A program made the translations under genes and the position numbers. A model generated the notes under the pieces. The model was not told where the DNA came from and searched no databases. It saw nothing but the letters and a program-made list of their open reading frames with translations. A stretch of 64,000 nt of DNA from Antedon bifida (taxonomy: Eukaryota; Echinodermata; Crinoidea; Comatulida; Antedonidae). Of the stretch, positions 28,052 to 58,113 are shown piece after piece (positions within the stretch are counted from its first letter, which is position 1; each line of letters opens with the position of its first letter). The stretch spans positions 36,272,501 to 36,336,500 of the forward strand of contig OY727094.1 of NCBI GenBank assembly GCA_963402885.1, read 5' to 3'.

Positions 28052-30802
28052 TTAAGGAGATTTTTTTAAATTATCAAACACAACCTCTGCGTAATCTACA
28101 TTTTCAGTTGTTCTTATTACTTGGAGTCTTGTATTGTTTATTCTTGAATGATCTATTTCAAGATATGTCAGGTTTTCAGCATTATAGGTATTTCGTTCAA
28201 ACAGATCGTTTTCATTGTCTATCAGGTCATCTGCTGCTGCTGGATCTATGTTTGTATCTATTGGTTTACCTTCTCTATCAGTAGCATAATCGTTAATGGT
28301 GGTCAGGTGTGCTGGTCGATACGATTGAATTTCAGCTAAATCTGAATTTTCCCTTGAAGCAGAAACATTCACACGGCTACCATCAAGTGGGGGTCGTGAT
28401 CGGTTATTCAGATGATTTTCGTAGATATTTTCCCTTGTTGAGTTAGCGTCTTTTCTTAAGGAAGGGATATCAACGCTTCGATGGTTTCTGTCTAATGGGC
28501 TTTCTTGGTGCTGTTCCATTTCATATATGTTTTCTCTTGTAGAATGTGTCTCTTCTCTTGAGTAAGGGGTATGAACATGGCCTCGACCGCTTCTGTCCAA
28601 TGGGCTTTCTTGTTGCTGTTCCATTTCATATATGTTTTCTCTGGTAGAATGTGTCTCTTCTCTTGAGTAAGGGGTATGAACATGGCCTCGACCGCTTCTG
28701 TCTAATGGGCTTTCTTGGTGCTGTTCCATTTCATATATGTTTTCTCTTGTAGAATGTGTCTCTTCTCTTGAGTAAGGGGTATGAACACGGCCTCGACCGC
28801 TTCTGTCCAATGGGCTTTCTTGTTGCTGTTCCATTTCATATATGTTTTCTCTTGTAGAATGTGTCTCTTCTCTTGAGTAAGGGGTATGAACATGGCCTCG
28901 ACCGCTTCTGTCCAATGGGCTTTCTTGTTGCTGTTCCATTTCATATATGTTTTCTCTTGTAGAATGTGTCTCTTCTCTTGAGTAAGGGGTATGAACATGG
29001 CCTCGACCGCTTCTGTCTAATGGGCTTTCTTGGTGCTGTTCCATTTCATATATGTTTTCTCTTGTTGAGTGTGGCTCTTCTCTTGCGTAAGGGGTATGAA
29101 CACGGCCTCGACCGTTTCTGTCCAATGGGCTTTCTTGTTGCTGTTCCATTTCATATATGTTTTCTCTTGTAGAATGTGTCTCTTCTCTTGAGTAAGGGGT
29201 ATGAACATGGCCTCGACCGCTTCTGTCTAATGGGCTTTCTTGGTGCTGTTCCATTTCATATATGTTTTCTCTTGTTGAGTGTGGCTCTTCTCTTGAGTAA
29301 GATGTATGAACATGGCCTCGACCGCTTCTGTCTAATGGGCTTTCTTGGTGCTGTTCCATTTCATATATGTTTTCTCTTGTTAAGTGTGGCTCTTCTCTTG
29401 AGTAAGATGTATGAACATGGCCTCGACCGCTTCTGTCTAATGGGCTTTCTTGGTGCTGTTCCATTTCATATATGTTTTCTCTTGTTGAGTGTGGCTCTGT
29501 TCTTGAGTAAGGGGTATGAACACTCTGATTGATTGTGTCAAATGGGATTTCTTGGTACTGTTCTGTTTCGTAGTAATGTTCGGTTGTAGTGGGGGCTGAT
29601 GCACCAAGGCGAACACTTTGTTGACGACTTTTTATGTGGGCAATCCATTTGATTTTTACTATAACAATAATGATAACGACCACAACTAATGCAAGAGATG
29701 CTACACTTATCGTCATCGTAAAGATATGCTCATTGTCATAATTAGGTAAATCATCATTAGCAGTTACATAATAACCGTCATTGAAAGTTGCGGATGTGGT
29801 TGTACCAGGGAGTTGTTTGGTTGTACTATATTCTGTAGATGTTTTGTGAGACCAAACTAACGTTAACGCTTCACTATAGCTGCCAAAATAATTATCAGCT
29901 GAAACATTAACTTCTGTCCCGTTTGTGACATTATAAATGTTACACATGTAATGCATTGAGTTTTCTGAACTTCCAGATGAGTTACAGAAGAAAAAGTTGT
30001 TGCTAAACATTGACCAACTCACAGTGGCTTCTGGATTCGATGTAATATTCAATGTTATTGATGCGTTGCTTGGATCATTGATGCAGTCTGCAATTGAGTA
30101 GTTCACACTCGTTGAAAGAACTGTTGGTGAGTAGCTGACGTTAAGTGGTCCACTCGTACAGTTTACTATCGTATTTATTGGAATTGAAAATATGGCTGTG
30201 CAGCACAGCACAGCATTATTTAGATCATCCGATATTGTTATATTGTGTGATAAACGGTTGAATGTCGAGGAGGCCAGTTTTTGTCTGTTGTTTTTGTAAA
30301 GAATCGATAATTCTAAGTTACTTGCAGAGCGTTTGCCGTCATCTAGGAAACACCCAAACGTTATTACGTCCCCTTCTTTGACGTCGCGTTTAACACCAGT
30401 ACATGTAGGACTTGCAGGCATCGAGTATGCAGTTACATTTGCAACATTGCTGAATGCACACGTTTTTATTTTGAGATCGAAACACACTTTACATTTGTAC
30501 ATACCTGTATTGAACCATACAGCTTCATCAATCAATAGTTTGAAGGTTTTACTCGTAAAGTTCTCAACAATATAATCGAAATCTAGTGTATTTTTAATTT
30601 CATCAATTTTTATATTGTCTTTAAACCAATCCACCTCATATACATCCATGTCTTCTTGTACTACACAATTCAGCTCCACTTTGCTAAACAAGGGTAAAAC
30701 ACTCATTGAAGGCGTTATAGTTACGTTATAGATCGCCTTAACTTTTAATAAGCCTATCAAATAAAACAAGAGTAACCACCAGATATCCATACTGAGCAAC
30801 AT
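28052..30802 (-). CDS. Class A Ig receptor with 35-residue tyrosine repeats
   Basis: Single-exon gene, 916 codons from the ATG at 30802. The 19-codon upstream extension to 30859 is not kept in the paralog at 37650, where that ATG is ATA. Signal peptide MLLSMDIWWLLLFYLIGLL. Three Ig-like domains (about 24-125, 128-225, 228-318) with conserved C46, C104, extra C107 and C115. Membrane segment about 361-386. The tail holds nine 35-residue repeats beginning ENIYEMEQ (442-756), two degenerate ones (757 onwards), then two ITIM-like motifs, LTYLEI (Y880) and VDYAEV (Y904), and ends at KKSP. Unlike its paralogs it has no PHD finger and no coiled coil. Each repeat offers Y-E-M-E plus a second tyrosine (TPYS), so the tail has about 20 more tyrosines than its relatives. 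Inhibitory or scaffold signalling is inference. Confidence 0.88.
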   Translation of the reverse strand: MLLSMDIWWLLLFYLIGLLKVKAIYNVTITPSMSVLPLFSKVELNCVVQEDMDVYEVDWFKDNIKIDEIKNTLDFDYIVENFTSKTFKLLIDEAVWFNTGMYKCKVCFDLKIKTCAFSNVANVTAYSMPASPTCTGVKRDVKEGDVITFGCFLDDGKRSASNLELSILYKNNRQKLASSTFNRLSHNITISDDLNNAVLCCTAIFSIPINTIVNCTSGPLNVSYSPTVLSTSVNYSIADCINDPSNASITLNITSNPEATVSWSMFSNNFFFCNSSGSSENSMHYMCNIYNVTNGTEVNVSADNYFGSYSEALTLVWSHKTSTEYSTTKQLPGTTTSATFNDGYYVTANDDLPNYDNEHIFTMTISVASLALVVVVIIIVIVKIKWIAHIKSRQQSVRLGASAPTTTEHYYETEQYQEIPFDTINQSVHTPYSRTEPHSTRENIYEMEQHQESPLDRSGRGHVHTSYSREEPHLTRENIYEMEQHQESPLDRSGRGHVHTSYSREEPHSTRENIYEMEQHQESPLDRSGRGHVHTPYSREETHSTRENIYEMEQQQESPLDRNGRGRVHTPYAREEPHSTRENIYEMEQHQESPLDRSGRGHVHTPYSREETHSTRENIYEMEQQQESPLDRSGRGHVHTPYSREETHSTRENIYEMEQQQESPLDRSGRGRVHTPYSREETHSTRENIYEMEQHQESPLDRSGRGHVHTPYSREETHSTRENIYEMEQQQESPLDRSGRGHVHTPYSREETHSTRENIYEMEQHQESPLDRNHRSVDIPSLRKDANSTRENIYENHLNNRSRPPLDGSRVNVSASRENSDLAEIQSYRPAHLTTINDYATDREGKPIDTNIDPAAADDLIDNENDLFERNTYNAENLTYLEIDHSRINNTRLQVIRTTENVDYAEVVFDNLKKSP
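28433..29479 (-). repeat. 105-bp coding minisatellite in receptor tail
   Basis: Nine in-frame 105-base units (28535-29479) and a tenth degenerate 102-base unit (28433-28534). Units differ at a few linked positions (EMEQHQ or EMEQQQ, EETHS or EEPHS), which alternate along the array. This pattern suggests expansion by blocks of two or three units. Confidence 0.95.
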
Positions 30803-32175
30803 TTCTATTGAAAGTGTTCCGTGAGATGCGATAGCTTCGTTTGTAATACGCGAATTCATGTTTCGGTTTTGAGGTATGTTATGATGGCGTCTACGATTTA
30901 AAAAGTTTAATTATAAAGTTAAAATATAATTGTTCATACTGTCAGAATTTCTATTCCTGTATAGCCTACGTTGACAGTAGGCTTAATATATGTAGGCCAC
31001 AAGCTACTAATATTTTATATCAACCTATTTTGACGATTAATCGAATTAAGTGTATTTATTGTGGTTTTATCAATTGTCCCTAATATAAATAATTGAAGTT
31101 TAGTCAAAGTTATAACAAGAATTAAGATTCAATAAACTTTATTGTTCACAGTTATTAATATTACATACTGTATAGTTTTGTATAAAAAATTATTGTATTT
31201 GACTACCACACAACAGACCCTTTAGCCTTAATTTCAAGGTAATTCAAGGTAATTCTATATACATTATATATACATCTATATATATTATTTAAATGTAATA
31301 AATTGGGGACAAAATAAACCTGACTACAAACATGAATCAAAGAGTTCATTTCTAATGTTTGCTTATATATGGCCTTAAATGTCCATCATTACAATTGTAT
31401 CTAGACCTGTAAATAAAACTGGCTGCTGGTTGAATGAAAATTTATGCGCTTCAGCATGAGTTGCATCATGCATGATACTGCAAACTTCATACAACCTTTT
31501 CGTCCACCACTTATTGAGTATAAGCCTAGTTGAAAGGAAAGAGGTAATAATGATTCCGTCAGTTCACATAAGGGCCTGACAGGGCATTCTACAGTGGTTT
31601 GGCGACGATGAAATTAATGCTACAGTGTTTACATAATTTCGTTTAGATTTGGTCCATGAGCAAAAACGCTTTGGACTGTATCAAGATCATTAGAAATTGG
31701 GTTAAGCTAAATATTTAAACTTGGATAGTATTTTTAATTTTCTTATGCCACCTTAAAACATTTTTTAAAATCCTTTTTTATCTTTTGTGGTTCACCATCA
31801 CCAATTCATTCAATGTTTCATTACATAATTTCTAAACATTTTTACCTTTTTTCATTATTATTTTTCTATTTTTCCCCTTATTAATATCATCATATTAGTA
31901 TCATACCATTAGTAAATATTAACATTTATTTAGTATTTTTGTTTTCTGAATTACTAAACATTAATACAAAGTATTTACTTCTTAACATTCTTTTTTTTTT
32001 TGTTAAATCCTCTATTTACAAAACCAATCGTATATTAATTCAAGCTACAAAAATTGATACATTTTCAAACATCGAATCGAAATTCAAATTAGTCAAATGG
32101 AATTACTATTGGGTGAATTCATAGTTACTGTCCTACCATTGTTGTGTTGATGCCAGTGATAATAAACATAAAGCA
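30803..32175. other. Spacer; upstream part duplicated at 39501-39995
   Basis: 30803-31330 matches 39501-39995, the upstream region of the gene at 37650 (shared GATTCAATAAACTTTATTGT and GGGGACAAAATAAACCTGAC). The promoter was therefore duplicated with the gene. 31331-32175 is AT-rich with nothing recognised. Confidence 0.6.
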
Positions 32176-33243
32176 TTAAAAATAAAATCGAAATACAAAC
32201 GCACAAATGAATGCTATGTAGTAAATAGTCGTACAAGTATTATTTACTTCGCTTGTATTAGAGGGATTAGAACTACAGTATAAATTGATAACATGGCTAT
32301 CTTCACCGACATCATTAGTTGCGTTAATCGTTATCATGGTACCATTCTCATGTTCAGTAAATTCTTTTCTGTTAGATAAAGTATAAAATCCTGGAAGTTC
32401 ACTGGTTAATTCAGCTTGACTGCAATCTATCGATTGATTGTTCCGCCAACAATCCCAGGAAATGTTTGCTTCAGGGTAAGAAATCACATTTATTGGTATG
32501 TATAAATGATCTCCTATGTTATATTCTATTATATTTGACATAGTTTGAAAACGTGGTGGATAGTAAACAGTAAGTTTTGGTGTAGAACATATCACACTAT
32601 GTTGAAGGAGTTTATGTGATACTGCAAAGTGAAACATTTTCATATTACGAGTTACATTAATTTCCAAAGTAACTTCATCAAATTGATTGTGCGGTGGGTT
32701 ATGTACTTCCATAGCACGGTATGTTCCATTGGTATCCACTGTGAATATTGAAACATTTGCAGGAAGGTTACCAATAAAGACATTGTAATATAGAGTCACT
32801 ATTTCGCCTTCTACAACATCATTTTTCTCGATATCACACAATATTTTTGGGTCCACGGGCAACTCATACAATTCAACATTTATTTTCACTACATGGGAAA
32901 ATACTGATGTTTCTGATGTTAATAATTTGCAGATGTACAAACCCTCAAAATGTCGACTAACCTTTTTTATAACCAGACAGTAATTCTGTGTTTTTACGTC
33001 ATGCTCGAGTTCAAATAATGTTTTAAACTTTAAGTTTGTTGTTTTGTTGATACTTAATTGGGTTACGGCGTATTCACTGACATGATGCCAAGCCACGTCA
33101 TAGTTACCTGAATGTTCAACTAGACAATCTAGATTAACGTTCTCAGTTCCAGTAAGCAACTGTAATGTTCGTATTTCAGACGGGTTGCTTTCTGACAAAC
33201 AGCAATACAAAAGACCAAGGTAAAATATCTTGAATAATAGCAT
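32176..33243 (-). CDS. Class B Ig receptor, no tail
   Basis: Single-exon gene, 355 codons, with signal peptide MLLFKIFYLGLLYCCLSES. Three Ig-like domains: about 25-123 (C40, W52, C105), 127-225 (C136, C219) and 230-322. The protein ends in a hydrophobic stretch (about 338-355: TTIYYIAFICAFVFRFYF) with no cytoplasmic residues after it, so a GPI anchor or tail-less membrane form is possible; the arginine near the end would be unusual for a GPI signal. Domains 1-2 are closest to the gene at 44333 (FEGLYICKL, NDVVEGEIVT, VTRNMK). It lies 1.4 kb upstream of the class A gene at 28052, same strand. It may act as a decoy or as the ligand-binding half of a pair; that is inference. Confidence 0.85.
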   Translation of the reverse strand: MLLFKIFYLGLLYCCLSESNPSEIRTLQLLTGTENVNLDCLVEHSGNYDVAWHHVSEYAVTQLSINKTTNLKFKTLFELEHDVKTQNYCLVIKKVSRHFEGLYICKLLTSETSVFSHVVKINVELYELPVDPKILCDIEKNDVVEGEIVTLYYNVFIGNLPANVSIFTVDTNGTYRAMEVHNPPHNQFDEVTLEINVTRNMKMFHFAVSHKLLQHSVICSTPKLTVYYPPRFQTMSNIIEYNIGDHLYIPINVISYPEANISWDCWRNNQSIDCSQAELTSELPGFYTLSNRKEFTEHENGTMITINATNDVGEDSHVINLYCSSNPSNTSEVNNTCTTIYYIAFICAFVFRFYF

Positions 33244-37649: not shown

Positions 37650-39500
37650 TCAGTTATCACTTTCTAGTTGTTTCGATAAAATACGCATTGTTAATTGTTG
37701 TCTTTCAATCATATCTTGCTGTTCTTTTACCATTGCCGTTAATGAAGCGATATTGCTAGCCATATCCGACATAGTACCAGGCATAGCTGTGCAATATGGA
37801 CACAACCACACTGTGGGTATCGTGGTTGACTTAATTTTGAGACAAGGTTTATGGTATTTTTTTTGACAAAGCGAACATTTTAGTAGATTATCATTCATTA
37901 AGACATTGTCAAACTTACACTGTTGGATACAAATACGTCTTCCGGTATTAGATATTGTACTTTCATTTTCTATCTTTTCATTGTCGGTGCCAGTAGGTGT
38001 AGCATGTGTATGTACTATATCTGTGTAATCAACTCCATCAATTGTTCGTATCACTCCGACTTCATTTTCAATTTTTGGATGATCAATATCAATATATGTT
38101 AGATTTTCAGTCGTTTCTTTGTCATTTATTATGTCTGTTTCAAGATCTAGGCCTATGGGTAATTTTAGTCGCATTGTTTCACTGTCGTGTTCATTGATGT
38201 CTCTTGAGCCCGAAGCACCGACAACGTTTACCTCATACAGTTTTGTTTCGTAGATATGTTGTGGGGTCGAGTTAAACGTTGATGAACCGTCTACAACACT
38301 CATGGTTTTTCGATTGTTAAGTTGTTTCATCTTTCGGATGCTTATTATAACAATAATTATGATAACCACTCCTATCGATGTAAGAGATACACTTATAGTA
38401 ATCGTAAACCTATAATCACCATAGTTAATATCATCTTTATTATAATTTTCAGTTGATTGGTTATTTATTCCAAGCGTTGTTACAGGTTTGATTGTAGTAC
38501 CATTGGTTGTGCTATATTCTGCATATGTTTTGTGATCCCAAACCAAAGTTAACAACTGACTGATATTACCAAAATAATTATCAGCTGAAACAATAACATC
38601 TGTTCCGTTTGTAACATTATAAATATTACACATGTAATGTATAGAGTTGTCTGACCTTCCAGATGAGTTACAGGAGACACGACCGTTTAAACCGTAATTA
38701 TTTGACCAACTCACAATGGCTTCAGGATTTGATGTGATATTCACTGTTATTGTCGCATTACTTGAGTCATTTATTAAGTCAGCAATTGAGTAGGTAACAC
38801 TCGTTAAAAACAGTTTTGGAGAATAGCTGACATTAAGTGGTCCACTCGTACAGTTTACTGTCGTATTTATTGGAATTGAAAATATGGCTGTGCAGCACAG
38901 CACGGCATTATTTAGATCATCCGATATTGTTATATTGTGTGATAAACGGTTGAATGTTGAAGAGGCCAGTTTTTGTCCTGTTCTGTTGTTTTTGTAAATA
39001 ACCGATAATTCTAAGTTACTTGCAGGGCGTTTGCCGTCATCTAGGAAACACCCAAACGTTATTACGTCCCCTTCTTTGACGTCGCGTTTAACACCAGTAC
39101 ATGTGGGACTTGCAGGCAACGAGTATAGAGTTACATTTGAAACATTGCTGAATTCACACGTTTTTATTTTGAGATCGAAACACACTTTACATTTGTACAT
39201 ACCTGTATTGAACCATACAGCTTTATTAATCAGTAGTTTGAAGGTTTTACTCGTAAAGTTCTCAACAATATAATCGAAATCTAGTGTATTTGTATTTTCA
39301 TCAATTTTTAGATTGTCTTTATACCAATCCACCTCATATACATCCATGTCTTCTTGTACTACACAATTCAGCTCCACTTTGCTAAACAAGGGTAAAACAC
39401 TCATTGAAGGCGTTATAGTTACGTTATAGATCGCTTTAGCTTTTAATAAGCCTATAAAATAAAACAAGAGTAACCACCAGATATCCATACTGAGCAACAT
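37650..39500 (-). CDS. Class A Ig receptor with ITIMs and PHD finger
   Basis: Single-exon gene, 616 codons, with signal peptide MLLSMDIWWLLLFYFIGLL. Three Ig-like domains: about 24-125 (C46, W59, C104 plus C107 and C115), 128-227 and 230-322. Membrane segment about 365-388, then IRKMKQ. The tail has YETKLYEV, two ITIM-like motifs (LTYIDI with Y469, VDYTDI with Y492), a C4HC3 PHD-type finger (C524, C528, C542, C545, H550, C553, C567, C570; VWLCPYC), and a coiled coil from about 574 to the end. This is the cleanest representative of the class: one copy of each signalling module. Domains 1-2 are almost identical at DNA level to the gene at 28052, whereas domain 3 and the tail differ. Predicted to be an inhibitory receptor; the role of the finger is unknown. 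Confidence 0.9.
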   Translation of the reverse strand: MLLSMDIWWLLLFYFIGLLKAKAIYNVTITPSMSVLPLFSKVELNCVVQEDMDVYEVDWYKDNLKIDENTNTLDFDYIVENFTSKTFKLLINKAVWFNTGMYKCKVCFDLKIKTCEFSNVSNVTLYSLPASPTCTGVKRDVKEGDVITFGCFLDDGKRPASNLELSVIYKNNRTGQKLASSTFNRLSHNITISDDLNNAVLCCTAIFSIPINTTVNCTSGPLNVSYSPKLFLTSVTYSIADLINDSSNATITVNITSNPEAIVSWSNNYGLNGRVSCNSSGRSDNSIHYMCNIYNVTNGTDVIVSADNYFGNISQLLTLVWDHKTYAEYSTTNGTTIKPVTTLGINNQSTENYNKDDINYGDYRFTITISVSLTSIGVVIIIIVIISIRKMKQLNNRKTMSVVDGSSTFNSTPQHIYETKLYEVNVVGASGSRDINEHDSETMRLKLPIGLDLETDIINDKETTENLTYIDIDHPKIENEVGVIRTIDGVDYTDIVHTHATPTGTDNEKIENESTISNTGRRICIQQCKFDNVLMNDNLLKCSLCQKKYHKPCLKIKSTTIPTVWLCPYCTAMPGTMSDMASNIASLTAMVKEQQDMIERQQLTMRILSKQLESDN

Positions 39501-39995
39501 TTCTATTGAAAGTGTTCCGTGTGATGCGATAGCTTCGTTTCTAATACGCTAATTTATGTTTCGGTTTTGACGTATGTTATGGCGCCTACGATTTTAAAAG
39601 TTTAATTATAACGTTTAAATAAAATTGTTGATACTGTCAGAACTTCTATTCTATAGCCCACTGTATAAATAAAACAAATAACAATAAATAAAACAGTAGA
39701 CTTAATATATGTAGGCCTATACAAGCTACTAATATTTTATGTCAACCTATTTTGACGATTAATCGAATTAAGTGTATTTATTGTGGTTTTATAAACTGTC
39801 CGTAATGTAAATAATTGAAGTTTAGTCAAAGTTATAACAAGAATTAAGATTCAATAAACTTTATTGTTCACAGTTATTAATATTACATAACGGTACAGTT
39901 TGGTATGAAAGAGCATTATAACAATTGTATATAATAGTCTATATAATTATTTAAATGTAATAAATTGGGGACAAAATAAACCTGACTACAAACAT

Positions 39996-42941: not shown

Positions 42942-43870
42942 GCAAGAACACTGGAGTAACATAGTTGGCATACATCGCGTAGTCGTGTTCAAAGTCTATG
43001 GTGGGCAACTGATTTCGGGTTTAGGCCTACAACCCTCTCTACCCAAACAACAAACAAGCAAAACAACATAATAATAAATGTGGTTGTATGTTTGGCAGGA
43101 ATATAACAAGTTCTGTAATGAAAATGAGAGTTGTTTTTTTGTTGAAGTGTATTAGTGTTAACATTGTCATTGTGTGCGCGTAAACTGATTCAAATGATTT
43201 AGATTGCCACAGCTTCCAGGGGCTTCGCTTTCAGTGCCCTTTTTTGTGTTAGTTACTCTCACTTTGAACATTGTTGTTGTCGTCGCCGACATCGTTGTCG
43301 TTATTCTTCTTTTCAAAATAACAAATTAAACATGGTAATAAAGTATATATATATCACTTTATTAAAAAAAACATAACTTTGTACATTCATAGACAACGGC
43401 TAAATTGCACTTACAATTACAAGTATAAAAATATATATAACACAGAACTATATACTGTACATTTTAATTTACAAATTTACAAATCATCTAAATAAAAATA
43501 GTAAAAAACATTCTCATAAAATCAATAGAAACTTGCTTTTAAAATACATATAGGCCTAATATACAGAATATAAAATCAGTCTGGAACAGCAGAGTGGATA
43601 ATATTGCTGTTAAGAAGTGTAGGCCTAGTGTAAACAGGGAATTAAATGTAATTTAAGATTCATAACGGAAACAGTATTTCCAGAAAAATAATCACATTAA
43701 TATTGATTTTTAAAAAAGACTTTTGTTTAGCATAACAACGAAAACATAAAACAACGCTGGCACCTTTTCCTAACAAAATAAAAATAAAATGTCGTTTTTG
43801 AATGTGGTTCATTGGTAATTTCTTGTTTTCAAAATGTGAAGCAAGAAAGTGAATAATGCGATAAATAACT
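42942..43870. repeat. Segmental duplication, downstream flank, copy 2
   Basis: Counterpart of 36655-37649. Being truncated and slightly shorter, it marks the 3' flank of the class A pseudogene next to it. Confidence 0.85.
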
Positions 43871-43879
43871 AACAGAACC

Positions 43880-44180
43880 TCCTCAGTATCGTGGTTGACT
43901 TAATTAAGACAATGTTTATGGTATTGTTTTTGACAAAGCGAACATTTTAGCTGATATCTCCTGAGACCGATTCATTAACACTACATACTTCATATAGTTT
44001 GGTTTCGTAGATATGTTGTATCGGGTGTTGTCTGTTCGGTGTGGATGAATCTCTATTTACATTAAGACTTTGATTCTGACGATTGCTCTTTCTGAGTTTT
44101 ATTATAATGTTAATAATAATGGTAAATGTGTTCCCACTTGCACGCCAAACTTTAAAAAAATTAAAGTTTTTAAATCCCAT
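43880..44180 (-). pseudogene. Class A receptor pseudogene (membrane, tail, PHD scraps)
   Basis: The minus-strand frame 44180-43947 keeps the end of a membrane segment (IIINIIIKLRKSNRQ), then RDSSTPNRQHPIQHIYETKL and YEVCSVNESVSG, almost the same as residues 388-437 of the gene at 48877. Directly after it, 43960-43890 retains a scrap of the PHD finger (CSLCQKQYH-like with the KCSLCQ block). Ig domains, ITIMs and coiled coil are gone. It lies just downstream of the class B gene at 44333, repeating the B-then-A order. Confidence 0.88.
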
Positions 44181-44296
44181 ATATATAGCTCATCGGATTG
44201 AAAGATGACCCCCGTTTTTCACTTATCACTTATTTATGGAAGCCAATGATAAAATTGCTGTGAATCCTCATATGGCCACCGGATTTAAACAAGGCC

Positions 44297-46590: not shown

Positions 46591-47324
46591 TATTTACCTA
46601 TCCTTGTAACGGTTATATCAGTGAGTAAAACTTTTGATCAATGCTTATAGTACATTCGAATCCGCAAATGTGTAAATAATAAGTATCACCGGTTTAAGCA
46701 AAACATCAAAACAAGACCACAATGTAACTGCAAAAGTAGCAAAAAAGATACCAAACCTCCTACAAAAAATTTGCAAAATATCAAAAACAATTGAAATTAA
46801 AAAAAAGTACATTAATATAATAAACACAAACATACCGAATCCAAATGATTTGATTGATATTATTGTTGAACATGGAAACAACACTTACCACCACAATTAC
46901 GGCAAACAATTTAATTAATGTGTTTACTGGTCGTGTTTCCGCAGCAATGTAGGCCCTATTTCTTTTATTTTATCCATATTTATTCATATTGCATACCACC
47001 CTGTTTCTAAGCATAATTATAAAAACAAAGCTCTCACACAAAAAACAACAAAATATCAAATAATACACCACGAAAAACAATATGTAGTTTGGTATTTTAC
47101 TTTCGTTAGTCTCCTCGCGCATCATCTAATTTCGACTACCACCACCATGTGCACTTTTGGTGTTGATTGCAGCTGTAGTTTTAGTATTCCAATACTTCAG
47201 ATCTTATTTCTATAAATTACCAATTTATATTTTAAAACTGAGTGACTAATTGACAAAGTTCAACGTGGATGTCCCTCTCATCTACTTCTTGTTTATAAAA
47301 TGAATGAGAGCGCGTTATAAATGT
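46591..47324. other. Gene-free spacer
   Basis: AT-rich and A-rich on the plus strand, with short open frames that match nothing I know. Confidence 0.35.
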
Positions 47325-48870: not shown

Positions 48871-48876
48871 CTGCTA

Positions 48877-50742
48877 TTATTTATCACTATCTAATTGTTT
48901 CTCTAAAATACTTTGCATTGCTAATTTTTGATTTGCAATCATATCTTGCTGTTGTTTTACCATTGCACTCAACGAAGCAATGTTTTTAGCCATATCCGAC
49001 ATGGTACCCGGTATATCTTTGCAATATGGACACAACCACACTGTAGATGTCGTCGTTAGCTTCATTTTAACACAATGTCTATGGTATCGATTTTGGCAAA
49101 GTGGACATTCTACCTGATTATCCTTCATCGTGATATGATCGAACTTACATTGTTTGATGCAACTAATTCTATCAGGAACTAGACCTACATTGTTATCTTG
49201 TGTTGTCTTTTTTCCAGCCGTAGAATGTTTGTCAACTATTTCTGTGTATTCAACTCTTTCAATTGTTCGTGTCACTCCTACTTTATTTTCAATTATTGGA
49301 TGATCAATTTCTATGTACGTTAGATTTTCAGTCGTTTCGTTGTCACAAAAGTTTTCTGCTTCTGAATCCGTATTGTGCAATTCCACCACTTGCATTGGTA
49401 GGTCTACATGTTTGTGTTCATTGAGCTTTCCTGAGACCGATTCATTAACACTACATACTTCATATAGTGTGGTGTCGTAGATATGTTGTATCGGGCGTTG
49501 TCTGTTCGGTGTGGATGAATCTCTATTTACATTACTTTGACTTTGATTCTGACGTTTGCTCTTTTTTCTGAGTTTTATCATAACAATAATAATGGTAATA
49601 ATCAACACAAGCGAAGAAACAGATACAATAATGAGTGTTATCGTGAACATATTATATTCACTGTAATTAATTTGATAATCAGTAGCATTATTATTAATAT
49701 CATTTATCTCCGTTTGTTGATTATTTATTCGCAACGTTTTTGTAGGTCTGACAGTGTAATTGGCTTCTGTGTTACTTCTGTGAGACCAAACTAACGTTAA
49801 CGCTTCACTATGGTTACCAAAAGAATTATTAGCTGAAACAATAACTTCTGTCCCGTTTGTAATATTATAGATATTGCACACATAAAGCATAGAGTTTTCT
49901 GAACTTCCAGATGAGTTACAGAAGAAAAAGTTGTTGCCAAATCTTGACCAACTAACAGTGGCTTCTGGATTCGATGTAATATTCAATGTTATTGATGCGT
50001 TACTTGGATCATTGATGCAGTCTGCAATTGAGTAGGTCATTGAAAGAACTTTTGGAGAGTAGCTGACATTAAGTGGCCCACTTGAACACTTTAATGTCGT
50101 GTTTATTATTGGAAATCTGGCAGTGCAGCACAATACAGCGTTGTTTAGATCGTAAGATATTGATATATTGTGTGATATGCTTTTGTCTGTTGAGGTCGGC
50201 AGATTTTGTCGAGATGTGCCGTTTTTGTAAATAATCGATACCTCCAAGATACTTGGGAAGCCTGTACCGCCAATCATAAAACACCCGAAAGGTATGACTT
50301 TCCCTTCTTTAACGTCACGTTCAACATCAATGCATGTTGGACTTGCAGGAATCGAGTAAACAGTCACATTTGCATCATTGCTAAATGCACACGTTTTTCT
50401 TTCCAAATCGAAACATACTTCACATTTGTACATACCTGAATTTAATCCTGCAGCTTTATTAATTAACAGTTTGAAACTTTTACTCGTAAAGTTACAATTC
50501 ACAGAATATGTAGGCTCAAGTATATTTGTATTTTCAATAATTTTGTTCTTGAATTTATACCAAATCACCGCATGCACATCTATGTCTTCTTGTACTATAC
50601 AACTTAGCTCTATTTTGCTAAACACGGGTGAAATAGTCAATGAAGGTGTTATAGTTACGTTGTTGATCGCTTCGGATTCGAAGAGGACTAAAACAAATAC
50701 GAATGAGATGTAGGAAAGACAGGCATTTATACGGAGCAACAT
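48877..50742 (-). CDS. Class A Ig receptor with ITIMs and PHD finger
   Basis: Single-exon gene, 621 codons, with a signal peptide through about residue 22 (MLLRINACLSYISFVFVLVL). Three Ig-like domains: about 26-128 (C48, W61, C107 plus C110 and C118), 131-228 and 233-320. Membrane segment about 364-390, then LRKKSKRQ. The tail has IYDTTLYEV, two ITIM-like motifs (LTYIEI with Y476, VEYTEI with Y499), a C4HC3 PHD-type finger (C528, C532, C546, C549, H554, C557, C571, C574), and a coiled coil to 621. Domain 3 is nearly identical at DNA level to that of the gene at 28052. A LINE occupies the position of its 3' untranslated region, so its poly(A) site may now be inside that LINE. Confidence 0.9.
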   Translation of the reverse strand: MLLRINACLSYISFVFVLVLFESEAINNVTITPSLTISPVFSKIELSCIVQEDIDVHAVIWYKFKNKIIENTNILEPTYSVNCNFTSKSFKLLINKAAGLNSGMYKCEVCFDLERKTCAFSNDANVTVYSIPASPTCIDVERDVKEGKVIPFGCFMIGGTGFPSILEVSIIYKNGTSRQNLPTSTDKSISHNISISYDLNNAVLCCTARFPIINTTLKCSSGPLNVSYSPKVLSMTYSIADCINDPSNASITLNITSNPEATVSWSRFGNNFFFCNSSGSSENSMLYVCNIYNITNGTEVIVSANNSFGNHSEALTLVWSHRSNTEANYTVRPTKTLRINNQQTEINDINNNATDYQINYSEYNMFTITLIIVSVSSLVLIITIIIVMIKLRKKSKRQNQSQSNVNRDSSTPNRQRPIQHIYDTTLYEVCSVNESVSGKLNEHKHVDLPMQVVELHNTDSEAENFCDNETTENLTYIEIDHPIIENKVGVTRTIERVEYTEIVDKHSTAGKKTTQDNNVGLVPDRISCIKQCKFDHITMKDNQVECPLCQNRYHRHCVKMKLTTTSTVWLCPYCKDIPGTMSDMAKNIASLSAMVKQQQDMIANQKLAMQSILEKQLDSDK

Positions 50743-52429
50743 TTCTAACTAGTTAAGATGTTCTCGCACTCGATGAGAATAATGTGATATTTTCAATTTC
50801 TCCGTACTAATTCACATTTTTTTAGTTTCTATGCTAAAGCATATTAAGATTTTATGATTAGGTCTTTGTTTGTTTTCCACCGCTACCCTGGATATGCGTA
50901 GATGCCGATGAGTCGTTATGTCGACCAGGAACTGAAAGCAACTAAACTCAACTGTTACGCAAGACCATCATGTCATGTTTTAACGTAAAATATTGATTTA
51001 GTAACCATAAGTGTAATCAAGCATATTGTACTGTGGCTTTCATAACTCTATTAGGTCCAGTGTAAGTATTATATACAGTACCGTTTTGATTTTACGATCA
51101 TTCGGGAAACCACCTGACGACGGTAAACTCCAGTATGCAATGAAAACAATTATAATGACTCTCCATCCCCACAAAAGATGCATTACAATTTGTTTTATGT
51201 ACTAAAAAATCCGGGCGATTTCCACTGAACGGCGCGAAATCACCGAAAAACAGCTATTTTAGAGTGGTTTTTTCAATGTAACTCTGTTATTATTTGACCG
51301 ATTTTTATGGCTGTTTCGGCATTGTTATGCCTAATTAATTAGCAACAGCTTCATGTTTGTTTTAATTCTTAATTATGAAATATCGTCGGCATTGATTTTT
51401 AAAGTAAGATGATCCCAAATCGTCCTATGAAAGTATAGGCATTTTCGTAACATTTTCTGATCCTGATACGAAAACGTCTATCATTTTTGACATAGATTTC
51501 CGATTTTGATGGCTGTTTCACCATGCTAAATTGGGGGTGGGAGGAGCGTGATGGGTTTGTACAGATCGGAGTACTTATAGTGCCATAACAATAGTACAAG
51601 ATAGCTCACAAATATCGTTTTGTTAATGCAACGCTTTTCATTTAAAACAAATTGTACATGGAAACAAAACAAATGAGATAAAGAATGTCAAATATGAGTA
51701 TAAAAACTTGATCGGTTCTTTATTTCAAATAGGAAAATAAAACATTTTCATCACAAATATTGTTGGTATCTTTTAAAAATGTGTACGTTACATTGGACTG
51801 TCATAGTTGAATTAACATAATATTATCTATAAAACAACCGATTTGTTTTAATAAAATGTGTGAGGTCTTAGTTCACCCGCGGGAAATTCAAAACTTATTT
51901 AAAAGTGTTTTAAAATATATTGTAATATACGCCGACTAAACTATAGTATTGTGGTAAATTTAATTTTATTATATAATTATTTTTTTTTTTACTTACCCAT
52001 TTACTTACCTATTGTTAAAAATAACAGAGAATGTCTAATTTTGTAAAGCAATCCTACACCTGTACCTTTGCTACGTTTTAATATATAATAATATATTAAT
52101 AGTTGATACCGTAAAACATAATTTTATTATTATTATAATATAAACAGTTTAATATTTTTTTATACATGTTTACTTTTAGGTAAGAATTCAGCTCTTCCCG
52201 GGAAAAAATAGAAATAGTTTTGAGAAATTTAAAAAATAAAAATAAAAAACTACATTCGACATAGGCCTAATCCGACATTGTAGCATATTTCATTAAAATT
52301 GAACCGTCTCTCTTCCAACGGAATTGACCTCTCTTTCAATTCAAGTTACTTTTCTACAATCATCCGTAGAGGAAGTGTGAATTGTGGACCACCCAGACAT
52401 AAACCGTACTACCTGAAGACTTCTATACA
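50743..52429. other. 1.7-kb spacer between B and A genes
   Basis: No gene seen. 51170-51560 contains two GATTTT(T/G)ATGGCTGTTTC blocks in a diverged direct repeat. The rest is AT-rich. Confidence 0.35.
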
Positions 52430-53587
52430 TTAGATGTCATCCATGGGTATGGCTTGGTGCTGCACAACGCTAGTACCTCGGTTATCTATCACCCTATACA
52501 CTACCATTATTATTATTATCAATATTAGTATTACCGATAAAATGGAATCCCCCCATGTGTACTGTTTCTCCTGTTTGTCGTTTTCCTTCAACTCTTCCGT
52601 TTTATTGAGTTTAATGCTGTGTATAACATTTCCAATATTGTTGTTTGCTTTGAATACAATGTATGTGGCACTACCAATATCTGATCCTTTGATTGAAATC
52701 ATAAAACTGTTTTCAGATGTTGCACTTAATTTATTATAGAAGTTTACATTATCTACCGACAACTCATGATTCAACAACTTCCAATATACCTCCGCTTTAG
52801 GGTTAGAATCTACGTTAATCGGTATCTTCAAAACGGTCTCTGTGTCATATGTTAAAATCGTCGACATGTTCAAGAATGTTGGCGGATAACTTACGTTAAT
52901 ACTTCTCGTGTCATTGGTTATCTCGTTTAGTAGAAGATCACTTTGGACAACACACTGAAATGAATCCATACTGCGAGTTATGTTTACTTCCACTGTGACG
53001 CAATTGAATCCGAATTTATTCATTGTTGTAGAGTTCAGAATAGCGGACATAGGCCTAGATGAATTTCTATAAACAATCGATATTTCACATTTCGCTGAAA
53101 CACTTACTTTGCACTCAACAATATATATTTTCCCTTCTATGACATCAGTTTGTGCAATACTGCATACAACTTTCGGTAATATTACGTACAATCTTGTTAC
53201 AGATATCACCTCATTGTCACAAGATCTTGTAGCTTGGCATAGATACCGTTCATCATTTAGCAAGTTCATGTTTTTAATGATCAGTTGATAATTTTCATAA
53301 GTCTTGTTATTTCTAATACAATTGCCGTATTTAACACCATACAAACTTTCGTCTTTAATCCAAGTGTCATGTGTCAATCGATCTTCAGATTCTGTATTCA
53401 ACATATACCAACTTAACGTCTTCTCATGATAGGGAACTATGCAATCCAGTGTCACATTCGTGTCACCTGCAGTGACTAACTTTAGTTCTTGATGTTCTTC
53501 AAATTGTTGAGGTAATGGCCATGATAAACTCGGTGTACACAGTAAACAAAAATACAAAATGAGGTGTAATGAGAAAATGAAAGACAT
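52430..53587 (-). CDS. Class B Ig receptor, short tail
   Basis: Single-exon gene, 385 codons, with signal peptide MSFIFSLHLILYFCLLCTPS. Three Ig-like domains: the first with LDCIVPY, LSWYML and ERYLCQA; the second with VVCSIAQTDVIEGK and VEVNITRSMDSFQC; the third opening YPPTFLNMSTILTYDTETVL. Membrane segment about 346-364 (SILSVILILIIIIMVVY), then a 21-residue tail ending AIPMDDI with no tyrosine motif. It shares TRSMDSFQC and FGFNCVTVEV-type blocks with the gene at 55166, its closest relative. It lies 1.7 kb upstream of the class A gene at 48877. Confidence 0.86.
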   Translation of the reverse strand: MSFIFSLHLILYFCLLCTPSLSWPLPQQFEEHQELKLVTAGDTNVTLDCIVPYHEKTLSWYMLNTESEDRLTHDTWIKDESLYGVKYGNCIRNNKTYENYQLIIKNMNLLNDERYLCQATRSCDNEVISVTRLYVILPKVVCSIAQTDVIEGKIYIVECKVSVSAKCEISIVYRNSSRPMSAILNSTTMNKFGFNCVTVEVNITRSMDSFQCVVQSDLLLNEITNDTRSINVSYPPTFLNMSTILTYDTETVLKIPINVDSNPKAEVYWKLLNHELSVDNVNFYNKLSATSENSFMISIKGSDIGSATYIVFKANNNIGNVIHSIKLNKTEELKENDKQEKQYTWGDSILSVILILIIIIMVVYRVIDNRGTSVVQHQAIPMDDI

Positions 53588-54239
53588 TACAAACTTGTGT
53601 TATTAGTATACCAGAAATGCACTGAATAATTTCAGATAAAGAGTTGCACTCCTTTGAGTTACAATTACTATGGTGCAGGAGCTTAGCTTGTTGTTTGGAA
53701 TTGCAAAAATCCTGTTTACATTTTTCACACACTGGCCTATTTTACGTTTCGTTTAGGCTTTTGTTAGAAATTAATTTGAATTATCAATACAATAACACGG
53801 ATGGTGATATTTCATGAATAACAATCACACAATGTGGGGTATAGAGCGGAATGATAATACTGTTTTATTACGAGTGAACAAATTATTAATATTATACTAA
53901 TTCTCTCTACCCCAGCCGATCATAATATTGTCGAAATTCTCTATAAATTCTATCTTTCTTATCGGATTTAAAAATGTTTTTATATCGTTGGAAAGCTTAT
54001 CTTCTGCTGATAATGTGATTTCTTGCACATTGTATTATTATAGGTAAAATGTTTTGCTATGAGAATGTACCCCTCTGTTTATATGCGTTCAATACGTTTC
54101 GATTAAGTCATCTTTCATGATGAATGAATTGAATCATTATTAATTTTCATTTCTACATGAAGCATATGAGCAAACAGAAAATTCAGAAAAGAACCAGAAA
54201 TCTACAGCGTGCAATTATTATTGGCAAATGGGTATAATA
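53588..54239. other. Spacer upstream of the class B gene
   Basis: Non-coding as far as I can see; should contain the promoter of the gene at 52430-53587. Confidence 0.35.
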
Positions 54240-55165: not shown

Positions 55166-56296
55166 TTAAGGTATATTTTGAGGATTCTGATTTACACGAT
55201 GATTGCGCCGTGTTATCCACCATATTGTTATTAGGCCCACAGGTATTGCTAGAACTAGTAACCACCAGTACCTTTTATCATACTTATCACTTTCTTTTGA
55301 ACAACACTCTTTTTTATAGAGCTTGATGATGTGCGTATCATATCCAATACTGTTAATCGCTTTGATTATAAAGTATGTGGTTTCACCTATTTCTGATCCT
55401 TTGATTGAAAGAACAAAGCTGTTTTCAGTTATTTCACCTAATTGTCTAATAATGTTGCTGGAAGGTGTATTAGCTAACAACTTTTTCCAAAACTCCACAT
55501 AAACATGCGCTTTAGGATTAGAATCCACGATAATTGGGATATTCAAATCGGCTTCTCTGTCATACTCTACCGTCTCAGGAATATTCTGGAATGTTGGCCG
55601 GTAACTTACATTAAGATGCGGCGTGTAACTTATTATATCGTTTGGTAGAAGATCGTGGAAGACAGCACATTGGAATGAATCCATTCTACGCGTTATGTAA
55701 ACTTCAACTGTGACACAATTAAACCCACATTCATCCATTGTAGAGTTGGTGAAAACGGGATCGGGGGAATTGCTATAAATAATCGATATTTCACATTCCG
55801 CTGGAATACTACCAATAGATGCATTGCACTGAACTATAGATGTCGTCTCTTCCATGACATCAGTTTCTACAACACTGCATGCAACCTTTGGTTCAGAAGG
55901 TAATTCATATACGATCAGTCTTGTTAATCCCATAGATATAATTTCATTGTTATACAATGTAGCTTCGCATAAATACAATCCTTCAAATGACATTTTCATG
56001 TCTTTGATAACTAGGTGATAATTACTCACGTTTTGACCAGAAGTGTCTTCCACTTCATATAAACGTGGGTATTTAACCCATGTGTCTGTCGTCAGTAGAG
56101 TTTCAGATTTTTTGTCCACCAAGTACCAAGATAGCTTGTTAGTCGGATTGGAACGTATACAATCCAGCTTCACGTTTTTTTGTCCAACATATGCTTGTAA
56201 TATTTCTATTTGTGGTTCAGTTTGGAGCATTGACGGTACACCGTTCGCAAACAGCACCTTCAAGCACAATATAAGGTATACAAATATACAAAACAT
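55166..56296 (-). CDS. Class B Ig receptor, short tail
   Basis: Single-exon gene, 376 codons, with signal peptide MFCIFVYLILCLKVLFANG. Three Ig-like domains: domain 1 (KLDCIRS, LSWYLV, EGLYLCEA), domain 2 (VACSVVETDVMEE to VYITRRMDSFQC), domain 3 (PTFQNIPETVEYD to KAINSIGYDTHIIKL). A short linker holds paired cysteines (ECCSKES), followed by a membrane segment at about 343-361 (YWWLLVLAIPVGLITIWW) and a 15-residue basic tail (TRRNHRVNQNPQNIP). No ITIM and no charge inside the membrane. The membrane-proximal CC could support a disulfide-linked dimer, which is inference. Confidence 0.86.
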   Translation of the reverse strand: MFCIFVYLILCLKVLFANGVPSMLQTEPQIEILQAYVGQKNVKLDCIRSNPTNKLSWYLVDKKSETLLTTDTWVKYPRLYEVEDTSGQNVSNYHLVIKDMKMSFEGLYLCEATLYNNEIISMGLTRLIVYELPSEPKVACSVVETDVMEETTSIVQCNASIGSIPAECEISIIYSNSPDPVFTNSTMDECGFNCVTVEVYITRRMDSFQCAVFHDLLPNDIISYTPHLNVSYRPTFQNIPETVEYDREADLNIPIIVDSNPKAHVYVEFWKKLLANTPSSNIIRQLGEITENSFVLSIKGSEIGETTYFIIKAINSIGYDTHIIKLYKKECCSKESDKYDKRYWWLLVLAIPVGLITIWWITRRNHRVNQNPQNIP

Positions 56297-56934
56297 GACA
56301 AATTTGTGCTTAATCTGTATGTAAGAAGCTATATAGCTTGTTGCTAGCTGTTAATGATCATTCAAACATTTTGTTCTGATTTCTGAGTCGACGATTTTAC
56401 AGGACAAAGGTGATGTAATGGATGATTGGTACATTACAATCGCTCAGTCAACATTGTCATTCTTATTTATCTTATCGGAAAATATAGCAATCGATTTTTT
56501 TTCTCATGAATTATTCATAATTCCATTAGCTTAGTGCAGCGTTCCGCAACCTTTTTTGACCACGACCCCATGATTCTATTTTGGGAATTCTCGCGACCCA
56601 ACATTGCGTATTTGAGCTTACAGATTTCACGACAGTCTATTATTTCAAATAACGAACGAAAGATTTCTAATAGGCCGATACTTAATTCATATTCAATTTC
56701 ATTACAACGTAACCATGCCTCTGTTATACAGTAGGCCTAATTTAATTTATCATATTAAGACATACTTCAGGTCCGATTTCGGACATACTTAAGAGGTAGT
56801 ACCTCTGTTCATAATATACATCCTAATTATGTTTCATTTGTGTTAATTATGGAATAATAAAGTAAATAAAATATCTTATTTATAATTTACGGTATCTCAG
56901 ATTGTTATGTTTTCTGGTAAATTTGGCAATGCAC
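56297..56934. other. Spacer with a possible hAT-type end
   Basis: 56536-56580 reads CAGCGTTCCGCAACCTTTTT then TGACCACGACCCCATGA, resembling the terminus of many hAT transposons. No matching far end was found. No gene seen. Confidence 0.35.
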
Positions 56935-58113
56935 TTAATTACTCACGTAAAATATAAACTTTTTGAGGCACATGATAAACAGGACATATACAACAAGAAC
57001 CAGTACACCACCACGTGCTAATATTATTGACAAGAGTGTAAAATCCAATTTACGACGGTCAGTTGATAACAATGTGATATTAGCAGACTTAGGCTTAATT
57101 ACTTTAGTGGAAACTGTACTCATGTTTGTTGACCTAACTGAGTTACCGGTATCTATAAAAGCTGAAAATATATAAGATGCATTGCCAATAGCATTCTCCG
57201 CGATTATTTCAATAATTGATCCATTTTTTATGTCGTCGTCAATGAAACAAATATACCGAATGCCAGTAGACGGCTTACATAAGTTTACGACGGCGAAAGT
57301 TTGATTTGAAAGCAAATAAGCCTCTCTGTGTTCATCATACCGTCGCCAGTACACTGCAGATGCTTCAGGATTCGCTGAAATATTAACTGTCACTAACCCG
57401 GCAGATGAAATTACATGAAACTTAGAAAAAAATATTTTCGGTGCAAACATAACATTTAATGGTAAAGTGGTGCAGTTTTTCGATGTAAAAACTGGAAGTT
57501 CATACTTAACTTCACATGCAAATGAAATTCCGTTTGCTGTGTGATTCAAGTCGATTGGATAAGTAAAGATCTTCTCCCCCATCAGTGTTGGACCAAGTTC
57601 GTTACGTTTATTGTCCAGAATTGTCCAAGCTTTAATACTTGTAGGAGTAGGGACACGGTAAGCCTCACAGGTAAATATAACCTGAGTATCTTCAATTACA
57701 TACTCAGAATCAATGTAACATTCAGGAATTTTCGGTCGTGAGTAAACATTAACATCAACATTATTACTCCAAGCACATCCATTACTACATACGCCACATC
57801 TGTATGTCCCAGTGTGATGAGATGTCGCTCCATTGATTATCAACGTATGTGTGTTAGTGTTGAAATTACAATTTACTGTAAATAAAGAAATTTCCACATC
57901 TTCGTTTGTACTTATTGTGTAAAAATCAGCGCTTCTTCGTTGAGCAAACTTTACATCATAATTTGTTTGATCCGTTACGTAACACGTCAACGTCACCGAG
58001 TCACCAGCGTAAATGTCATTTATTGTAGAGTTTAATAAAATGTTTCCATTGCATGGCAACAACAATTTAGATAAGATAATAAAAAGCGTAAAGTTGTGTA
58101 AAATGACCGCCAT
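56935..58113 (-). CDS. Ig receptor with arginine in the membrane segment
   Basis: Single-exon gene, 392 codons, with signal peptide MAVILHNFTLFIILSKLLLP. Three Ig-like domains. The first has the class A pattern of extra cysteines (TYRCGVCSNGCAW) and the ATSHHTGTY F-strand block, so the ectodomain is closest to class A, especially 14169. After a long stalk, the membrane segment (about 358-383, FTLLSIILARGGVLVLVVY and on) has R367 near its middle, followed by a short tail (LKKFIFYVSN) without tyrosine signalling motifs. Known: a basic residue inside the membrane is how many activating immune receptors bind ITAM adaptors. Inferred: this is the activating partner of the ITIM receptors. A decayed copy lies at 54240-54870. 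Confidence 0.86.
   Translation of the reverse strand: MAVILHNFTLFIILSKLLLPCNGNILLNSTINDIYAGDSVTLTCYVTDQTNYDVKFAQRRSADFYTISTNEDVEISLFTVNCNFNTNTHTLIINGATSHHTGTYRCGVCSNGCAWSNNVDVNVYSRPKIPECYIDSEYVIEDTQVIFTCEAYRVPTPTSIKAWTILDNKRNELGPTLMGEKIFTYPIDLNHTANGISFACEVKYELPVFTSKNCTTLPLNVMFAPKIFFSKFHVISSAGLVTVNISANPEASAVYWRRYDEHREAYLLSNQTFAVVNLCKPSTGIRYICFIDDDIKNGSIIEIIAENAIGNASYIFSAFIDTGNSVRSTNMSTVSTKVIKPKSANITLLSTDRRKLDFTLLSIILARGGVLVLVVYVLFIMCLKKFIFYVSN

Follow-up and report, generated by a model that had tools for sequence, protein, structure and literature searches.

How did an immunoglobulin-type (Ig) surface receptor with ITIM motifs come to end in a PHD-like zinc finger, and what might the finger do there? 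The question is raised by a 64,000-nucleotide stretch of contig OY727094.1 of the crinoid Antedon bifida (the window), in which an earlier inspection of the DNA alone, which we call the sequence-only reading, had described three paralogs with a common plan of Ig domains, membrane pass, ITIM-like motifs, finger and coiled coil. Inspection of the reading frames in the window bears this out for all three ORFs. R1 (14169..16379, 736 codons between stops, with its first ATG at 16364), R3 (37650..39548, 632 codons) and R4 (48877..50748, 623 codons) are on the minus strand, and each is open end to end. After the Ig domains they encode a single membrane pass, then ITIM-like motifs, the C4HC3 finger and finally a coiled coil. 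Also in the window is R2 (28052..30910, minus strand, 952 codons), a paralog with the same kind of front and no finger; its cytoplasmic tail contains a 105-bp tandem array (28486..29522, minus strand, 9.9 copies, 95% match) and the C-terminal ITIMs LTYLEI and VDYAEV. The interval originally assigned to the family (28052..58113) includes R3 and R4, but it opens with the fingerless R2, closes with short-tailed Ig ORFs and omits R1.

By searching the genome we found three more paralogs, R5 and R6 with the finger and R7 without it, and all seven lie inside about 130 kb close to a chromosome end. In the mitochondrial contig of this genome, with genes named by eye, AAA stands at sites where Asn is conserved, in keeping with the echinoderm/flatworm code. 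At the DNA level, a single ORF runs from the Ig domains through the finger in five of the seven long-tailed paralogs. The genes appear to form a tandem family of type I Ig receptors of the inhibitory (ITIM) type, each a single ORF and apparently free of introns. A chimeric assembly artefact is ruled out because five paralogs at separate places carry the same fusion. Five other Ig ORFs from the genome's family list have tails of different kinds, and their sequences contain no such finger.

Signal peptides were called by eye rather than by a predictor, and the transmembrane segment and tail were placed by hydropathy. Pfam Ig models score above their cutoff in R1 and R3 and slightly under it in R2 and R4, and for the most part recognise only the first Ig domain. 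The three Ig-like domains originally described for each receptor are probable, given where cysteines are conserved and how strands are arranged in a structural model whose third domain has low confidence. In Foldseek searches this ectodomain model, of modest quality (pLDDT 65), matches domains D1-D2 of Roughest (E = 1e-9), SIRP-gamma and Siglec-10.

All seven tails contain at least one canonical ITIM ([SIVL]xYxx[IVL]), a motif that typically comes in twos some 20-30 residues apart. The number of ITIMs per tail is weak evidence when compared to shuffled tails (P = 0.01-0.31); a canonical pair spaced 15-30 residues apart is present in five of the seven family members (with repeats collapsed) as against 0.5-1.5% of shuffled tails, the seven paralogs not being independent of each other. 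Two ITIM-like motifs had been described for each of the three original paralogs, and this description fits R3 (LTYIDI/VDYTDI) and R4 (LTYIEI/VEYTEI), where the motifs are 23 residues apart and the first is LTYI[DE]I. In R1 the counterpart of the first motif, ENYIEI, is non-canonical, but R1 has a 48-bp tandem array (14516..14905, minus strand, 8.1 copies, 99% match) encoding ERVEYTEVIDEHSTAT, that is, eight 16-residue units with one ITIM (VEYTEV) in each; the canonical pairs of R1 are confined to this array. R5 has one canonical motif, the second ITIM tyrosine being gone (VDNTEV). Because R5 lacks this tyrosine and R1 lacks the first canonical ITIM, strict pairing is not universal. In their predicted features–Ig domains, single transmembrane segment, tail and canonical ITIMs–the receptors fit the plan of ITIM-bearing members of the Ig superfamily. 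The array was absent from the sequence-only reading, as were the retrotransposon origin and the swapping of tails described below.

The finger spans 14316..14456 in R1, 37791..37931 in R3 and 49021..49161 in R4 (all minus strand), and the spacing claimed for it, C-x3-C-x13-C-x2-C-x4-H-x2-C-x13-C-x2-C, is exact in all three. All five finger-bearing receptors have the eight zinc ligands, in C4HC3 order, and a Trp two residues ahead of the seventh ligand. The assignment to the PHD type, for which a profile search and a structure prediction had been proposed as checks, stands with qualifications. The Pfam PHD model (PF00628) does match in R1, R3 and R4, but below its curated cutoff (E = 0.003-0.015; 16-18 bits compared to 24), and five fingers from LINE ORF1s likewise fall short of it (18-21 bits). 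A model of the R4 tail, including the finger, gave PHD fingers as nearly all of the 50 Foldseek matches listed–for example PHF13, where the probability is 1.00, with 1.0 A across 34 columns–at probabilities of 0.80-1.00, but with E-values of 0.05-0.26 and a pTM of 0.41 for the model. We also considered a RING-type finger, for which there are weak Pfam matches (zf-RING_15, zf-ANAPC11); the Foldseek result and the relationship to LINEs favour PHD. At the level of the predicted fold, the finger is supported as a PHD finger, with modest E-values.

After the finger come a linker and coiled coil in R1 (14172..14315) and a coiled coil in R3 (37653..37790) and R4 (48880..49020, a 40-residue helix in the model), again on the minus strand. 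The coil register is non-random in all five finger-bearing tails (P = 0.0016-0.0046). In R3 and R4 the start of the coil differs from that in the other receptors by exactly two heptads; the R3 coil starts 14 residues shorter than those of R1, R5 and R6, and its end is extended.

Where the finger and coil came from is indicated by the crinoid's own genome. A search with the R3 tail returned 46 rows at E <= 0.01, of which seven are from the five finger-bearing receptors and 39 are others. We read 19 finger loci among these 39 rows, and all 19 have a homologue of LINE ORF2 downstream on the same strand, with pieces (the best listed) 748-2393 nt beyond the finger match. In two of the elements, L009 and L011, Pfam identifies PHD and Lipase_GDSL_2 domains in ORF1, and Exo_endo_phos, RVT_1 (E = 1e-35) and zf-RVT in ORF2; the GDSL domain is present in four of the five ORF1s scanned. 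These elements encode a PHD finger, a coiled coil and a GDSL esterase in ORF1 and an endonuclease-reverse transcriptase in ORF2. According to one study, a PHD finger is found in ORF1 of LINEs of the CR1/L2 lineage, often near the N-terminus (PMC4120745), and the receptor finger and coil resemble ORF1 in having that finger and in aligning with it.

By BLASTP, 11 LINE ORF1s match the five finger-bearing receptors in all 55 pairs, with 25-41% identity through the finger and coil, and the same 11 give no match to R2 or R7. The best match (E = 1e-23, 39% over 110 amino acids) stops two residues short of the C-termini of R1 and R6. Ligand order is shared by receptors and LINEs, close LINEs having C-x3-C-x12 or 13-C, and the coils are collinear. 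A tree groups the five receptor tails weakly (31 bootstrap, 86 SH-aLRT) and names no donor LINE family. Unlike LINE ORF1s, the receptors have Ig domains and a transmembrane segment and form a tandem cluster rather than dispersed copies. Pfam finds no esterase or reverse transcriptase in the receptor ORFs of the window, and TBLASTN with the 11 ORF1s (E = 0.1) finds no LINE remnants in about 2.5 kb past the stop codons of R1-R6, so the receptor tails are probably derived from ORF1 rather than being members of the LINEs. Taken together, these alignments make it very likely that the receptor finger and coil originate from a LINE ORF1.

The module appears to be maintained as a protein. Among the five receptors its dN/dS is 0.14-0.36 (10 pairs), and in all 10 pairs it is lower than the dN/dS of the ectodomains of the same pair; in the nine pairs that are not near-identical it is 0.14-0.28, at dS of 0.45-0.81. 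These values support purifying selection on the module, apparently stronger than on the ectodomain. The two halves of the receptors have had different histories. R1 and R6 have only 41% identity in the ectodomain (dS = 1.11) and 94% in the tail (dS = 0.06), and R1 and R7 have 79% identity in the ectodomain and tails that are unlike. Judging by these comparisons, the paralogs have exchanged ectodomains and tails.

On balance we favour a reading in which an ITIM receptor family captured the PHD finger and coiled coil of ORF1 as a cytoplasmic assembly module. An in-frame fusion at the C-terminus would have given an ancestral ITIM Ig receptor the N-terminal finger and coil of an ORF1 of the PHD-coiled coil-GDSL esterase type, leaving the esterase behind. 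The coil would oligomerise receptor tails and the finger would dock a partner; in this way ITIM tyrosines would be clustered for tandem-SH2 phosphatases, SH2 phosphatases being what phosphorylated ITIMs recruit. Signal strength would be tuned by multiplying the ITIMs, as in R1 and R6, and tails moved between ectodomains would couple different ligands to different outputs. For the assembly function itself, we consider the case evenly balanced. A more far-reaching version, which we find doubtful, is that the domesticated module gathers ITIM tails through self-assembly of the retrotransposon type. It might bind LINE ORF1 proteins as well, linking inhibition to retroelement load, and halves would be exchanged in such a way that many ectodomains share a single tail.

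If the favoured reading is true, a LINE ORF1 finger and coil on an ITIM receptor shows that retroelement proteins can provide signalling hardware. Some host proteins are known to be built of retrotransposon parts, most of them with nuclear or capsid-like functions, and the donor to LAP2alpha and ZNF451 is said to have been a retrotransposon ORF. Both are described as host proteins holding sequence derived from transposable elements (PMC4495291). The crinoid genes would likewise be fusions of element and host, but with surface receptors as the host part and a LINE ORF1 PHD finger and coil as the donor. The receptors could also help to reveal the function of the PHD domain that is widespread in LINE ORF1s, because in them the module stands without the other parts of the element and has been selectively kept; the authors of PMC4120745 state that they were aware of no functional studies on it.

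Other roles for the module are less well supported. It could act as a retroelement sensor or decoy, with the coil still pairing with LINE ORF1s and either coupling retroelement activity to inhibition or trapping ORF1 at the membrane. We think this unlikely. The receptor finger and coil are collinear with the ORF1s of L009, L011 and L012, elements of this genome in which both reading frames (ORF1, ORF2) remain open, but they share no more than 31-46% identity with four LINE ORF1s, which makes pairing uncertain, and a plasma-membrane receptor is an odd site for retroelement sensing. It is quite unlikely that the module is a passenger, a piece of LINE joined by accident and tolerated or merely adding length or stability. 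Some paralogs can dispense with it, since R2 and R7 have none, but all five copies retain the eight zinc ligands, and both the low dN/dS of the nine diverged pairs and the two-heptad difference in coil start count against this explanation.

The sequence-only reading had offered two options for the finger: a tail cleaved off as in Notch, which would go to the nucleus and read histone tails, or reuse in cytoplasmic protein binding. The second appears to be the better one and the first improbable. The fold and the histone readers among the Foldseek matches are consistent with a nuclear role, as are basic juxtamembrane clusters in six of the seven receptors (R1 and R3-R7), but such clusters resemble ordinary stop-transfer sequence. 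In PHD fingers that read histone H3K4me3, a Trp before Y/F-H is part of the aromatic cage. All five receptor fingers have K, R or Q in its place (the LINE fingers L021 and L026 have W), which bears on the reading of methylated tails and is compatible with binding to unmodified ones. Moreover, the relatives of the finger found in this genome, among the rows read, are LINE ORF1s and not chromatin proteins. Origin of the finger from a cellular PHD protein, with the LINE likeness due to parallel descent from the same fold, is highly improbable: PHD fingers are plentiful in nuclear proteins and a PDB sequence search matches PHF21A (E = 0.005), but the LINE ORF1 matches are much stronger and reach through the coil, and all 19 loci read among the 39 rows are LINEs.

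An ITIM receptor with a captured ORF1 module, as we favour, has partial parallels elsewhere. The SIRP, Siglec, KIR and LILR families similarly include inhibitory long-tailed members beside short-tailed ones and have swapped ectodomain and tail halves. These vertebrate genes are multi-exon and to our knowledge encode no zinc finger, whereas the genes here are single ORFs with one. The claim that no receptor with this plan has been described agrees with our literature search, which found none. Among 5.8 billion proteins, of which few are assumed to be from animals, so that a negative carries little weight, a whole-receptor query found no homologue at E = 0.001 (7994 candidates scored) and a tail query none at E = 0.01 (14 candidates); NCBIfam profiles gave nothing useful for the receptors. 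Clustered type I receptors of the Ig superfamily, with long tails carrying ITIM or tyrosine motifs, include the fester co-receptors (FcoR) of Botryllus (PMC12065747) and the similarly clustered Alr genes of Hydractinia cited there. By their published descriptions, they share clustering, type I Ig structure and tails with ITIM or tyrosine motifs with the crinoid receptors; FcoR differs in having V-type Ig, sushi and C2 domains, and the paper on it never mentions PHD.

The cluster may be a compact case of how inhibitory receptors evolve when ITIMs multiply and tails are exchanged. As in paired receptors, the membrane segment of one short-tailed neighbour includes a basic residue: the nearest short-tailed paralog (56935..58131, minus strand, 398 codons) is Ig-type, with an Arg in the predicted transmembrane segment, an 11-residue tail and no finger. 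The window also contains a decayed fragment of a receptor tail (43861..44072, minus strand), with 84% identity over 38 amino acids to the juxtamembrane part of the R4 tail, followed by an internal deletion into the finger and by stop codons.

Three stop-to-stop open reading frames on the minus strand of the window, R1 (14169-16379), R3 (37650-39548) and R4 (48877-50748), encode the complete receptor plan described in the sequence-only reading, and all of its parts were found again: a leader (a hydrophobic stretch called by eye), Ig-like domains, a transmembrane (TM) segment, tyrosine motifs, a C4HC3 PHD-type zinc finger and a C-terminal coiled coil. By Pfam the first Ig domain scores best and the others are rarely matched; the cysteines, together with an ectodomain model whose confidence is modest (mean pLDDT 65, with values under 50 across a large part of domain three), suggest three Ig domains per receptor. 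In a further minus-strand gene, R2 (28052-30910), the ectodomain matches that of R3 at 86% identity; R2 has the ITIMs LTYLEI and VDYAEV and no finger. Positions 43861-44072 (minus strand) contain a decayed receptor tail in which a piece of the finger survives. The window (C7:36272501-36336500) ends about 0.32 Mb short of the end of its contig, C7 (36,660,255 bases), in a 315.6-Mb assembly made up almost entirely of eleven contigs longer than 19 Mb.

Searching the genome with R3 and with the R4 ectodomain, we found seven closely related long-tailed receptors, which all lie within C7:36,194,054-36,323,248. The three besides R1-R4 are R5 (L022, 602 aa, with a finger), R6 (L024, 667 aa, with a finger and three VEYTEV repeats) and R7 (L023, 554 aa, without a finger), so that five of the seven carry the finger. 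The R4 ectodomain query gave 38 matches at E ≤ 1e-5, and the 31 outside this group (22-34% identity) are for the most part ORFs without interruption, about 350-700 codons long, on C7 and C12, a large family of apparently intronless Ig receptors. Five of these weaker Ig ORFs were read further, and no finger of the receptor type was found in the sequence read of their tails, which differ. A second run lies at C7:24694907-24756531, where at least 11 ORFs of 471-534 codons match the R4 ectodomain; the one gene read from it (L052) bears a different tail.

The finger and coil are related to the first protein (ORF1) of LINE retrotransposons. With the R3 tail alone as the query, 46 rows were obtained at E ≤ 0.01, of which seven come from the five finger-bearing receptors and 39 from elsewhere. 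We read 19 of these 39, and all 19 have a LINE ORF2 homolog downstream on the same strand. In the two elements where both ORFs were typed by Pfam (L009 and L011), ORF1 has a sub-threshold PHD finger and a GDSL-type esterase, and ORF2 has an endonuclease, a reverse transcriptase and zf-RVT; among three more ORF1s, the esterase is present in L015 and L021, and L019 has a weak SGNH match only. In BLASTP comparisons of 11 ORF1s with the seven receptors, all 55 pairs involving finger-bearing receptors match, at 25-41% identity (best E = 1e-23, 39% over 110 residues), and R2 and R7 match none of the 11. The best matches of R1, R5 and R6 begin before the first cysteine and end 2-3 residues from the C-terminus; those of R3 and R4 end some residues sooner. 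The second and third cysteines are separated by 12 or 13 residues in the close LINE fingers and by 13 in the receptors, and the last loop of R5 has 14 residues instead of 13.

In a maximum-likelihood tree of 17 tails the five receptor tails group together among the LINE ORF1s, with weak support (31/86) and long branches. ORF1s with PHD fingers are known from many CR1 and L2 subgroups (PMC4120745). Because they are so widespread, and are more diverse in this genome than the receptor tails, which are found in one cluster only, the transfer was probably from LINE to receptor. A case of host genes containing transposable-element sequence has been reported (PMC4495291). No described receptor of the Ig-ITIM-PHD/ORF1 plan was found in literature searches on ITIM with PHD finger, ITIM with retrotransposon ORF1, transposon-immune receptor fusions and echinoderm ITIM receptors, with most subscription journals outside their scope; the papers listed for transposon fusions concern cancer therapy.

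The finger-coil module is under selection. Among the five receptor tails its dN/dS (Nei-Gojobori counts, own script) is 0.14-0.36 over 10 pairs, and 0.14-0.28 in the nine pairs with dS ≥ 0.45; in each of the 10 pairs the ectodomain gives a higher value than the tail (ectodomain range over all 21 pairs, 0.26-0.57). The eight zinc ligands are all kept in each of the five fingers, and the a/d hydrophobic pattern of the coil is non-random in all five finger-bearing tails; its start is shorter in R3 and R4 by 14 residues, exactly two heptads. AlphaFold2 predicts a 40-residue helix after the finger with good local confidence (mean pLDDT 72.7, pTM 0.41). The top Foldseek ranks are PHD fingers (PHF8, UHRF1, PHF13), with high probabilities and E-values of 0.05 or worse, and the Pfam PHD score is below the gathering cutoff in receptors and LINEs alike.

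Identity per 50-column window reveals mosaic paralogs. For R1 and R7, identity is 82-92% in the first two Ig domains (D1-D2), drops to 14-35% in the stalk, TM and proximal tail, and recovers to 47-58% near the ITIMs. For R1 and R6 it is 23-33% in D1-D2, against 88-98% in the finger-coil windows, and for R2 and R3 84-96% in D1-D2, against 33-46% in the TM and proximal tail. The ectodomains fall into two broad types (R1/R7 and R2-R6) and the tails into two (with or without the finger), and all four combinations exist, represented by R1, R7, R3-R6 and R2. Recombination or gene conversion among paralogs offers the simple explanation; possibly, R2 and R7 instead lost the finger.

A canonical ITIM is present in all seven tails. 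Motif number per tail is weakly above chance (P = 0.01-0.31), and five of the seven tails (repeats collapsed) contain two motifs spaced by 15-30 residues, compared to 0.5-1.5% of shuffled tails, the seven being related and not independent. The motif lies in eight near-identical 16-residue units in R1 (a tandem array of 8.1 copies, 99%) and in three units in R6; R5 has lost its second ITIM tyrosine. R2 provides a second example of tyrosine-bearing tail units multiplied in tandem: a 105-bp array (28486-29522, minus strand) of about ten 35-residue units repeats the tyrosines of ENIYEMEQ and YSREE, neither a canonical ITIM. A tyrosine-bearing tail unit is also repeated in L050, an Ig ORF on C12.

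Established for the family are a single ORF, a LINE-related tail, selection on that tail, and mosaic paralogs. The coiled coil is known to act in LINE ORF1 assembly, as in L1. Because of this, and because the module is placed after the ITIMs, we suggest that the coil oligomerises receptor tails and the finger docks a protein partner, so that together they would concentrate ITIMs for tandem-SH2 phosphatases. The tail may possibly sense LINE ORF1 proteins. Several LINE copies (L009, L011, L012) retain an intact reading frame for each of the two proteins. A chromatin-reading role for the finger is disfavoured, because the cage tryptophan, present in two LINE fingers (L021 and L026), is replaced by K, R or Q in all five receptors.

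The window also has short-tailed Ig genes, all on the minus strand. The ORF at 56935-58131 has an arginine within its predicted TM segment (IILARGGVLVLVV), a feature of activating receptors that associate with adaptor chains; with the ITIM genes, it looks like part of a paired-receptor cluster. Five other Ig-type single-ORF genes (10575-11792, 32176-33246, 44333-45589, 52430-53599 and 55166-56350) have tails of 4 to 24 residues; the one at 32176-33246 stops almost at its hydrophobic stretch, which would fit a GPI-anchored or a secreted product. Reverse-transcriptase-like ORFs from a different LINE (47308-48759, plus strand, by eye) lie tail to tail with R4, about 120 bp from its stop codon. 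Three retroelement-like fragments on the minus strand (3833-4860, 41649-42107 and 6784-7296), named by eye, comprise two reverse transcriptase pieces and one L1-type ORF1-like ORF. Two tandem arrays (9670-10056, 19 copies of a 20-bp unit; 18972-19169, four copies of a 49-bp unit) are outside the listed long ORFs. Elsewhere in the assembly, the 15.8-kb contig C27, half of which was read, is mitochondrial by its reading frames: three genes identified by eye (cytb, nad4 and nad5) have AAA at conserved asparagines, the echinoderm/flatworm code.
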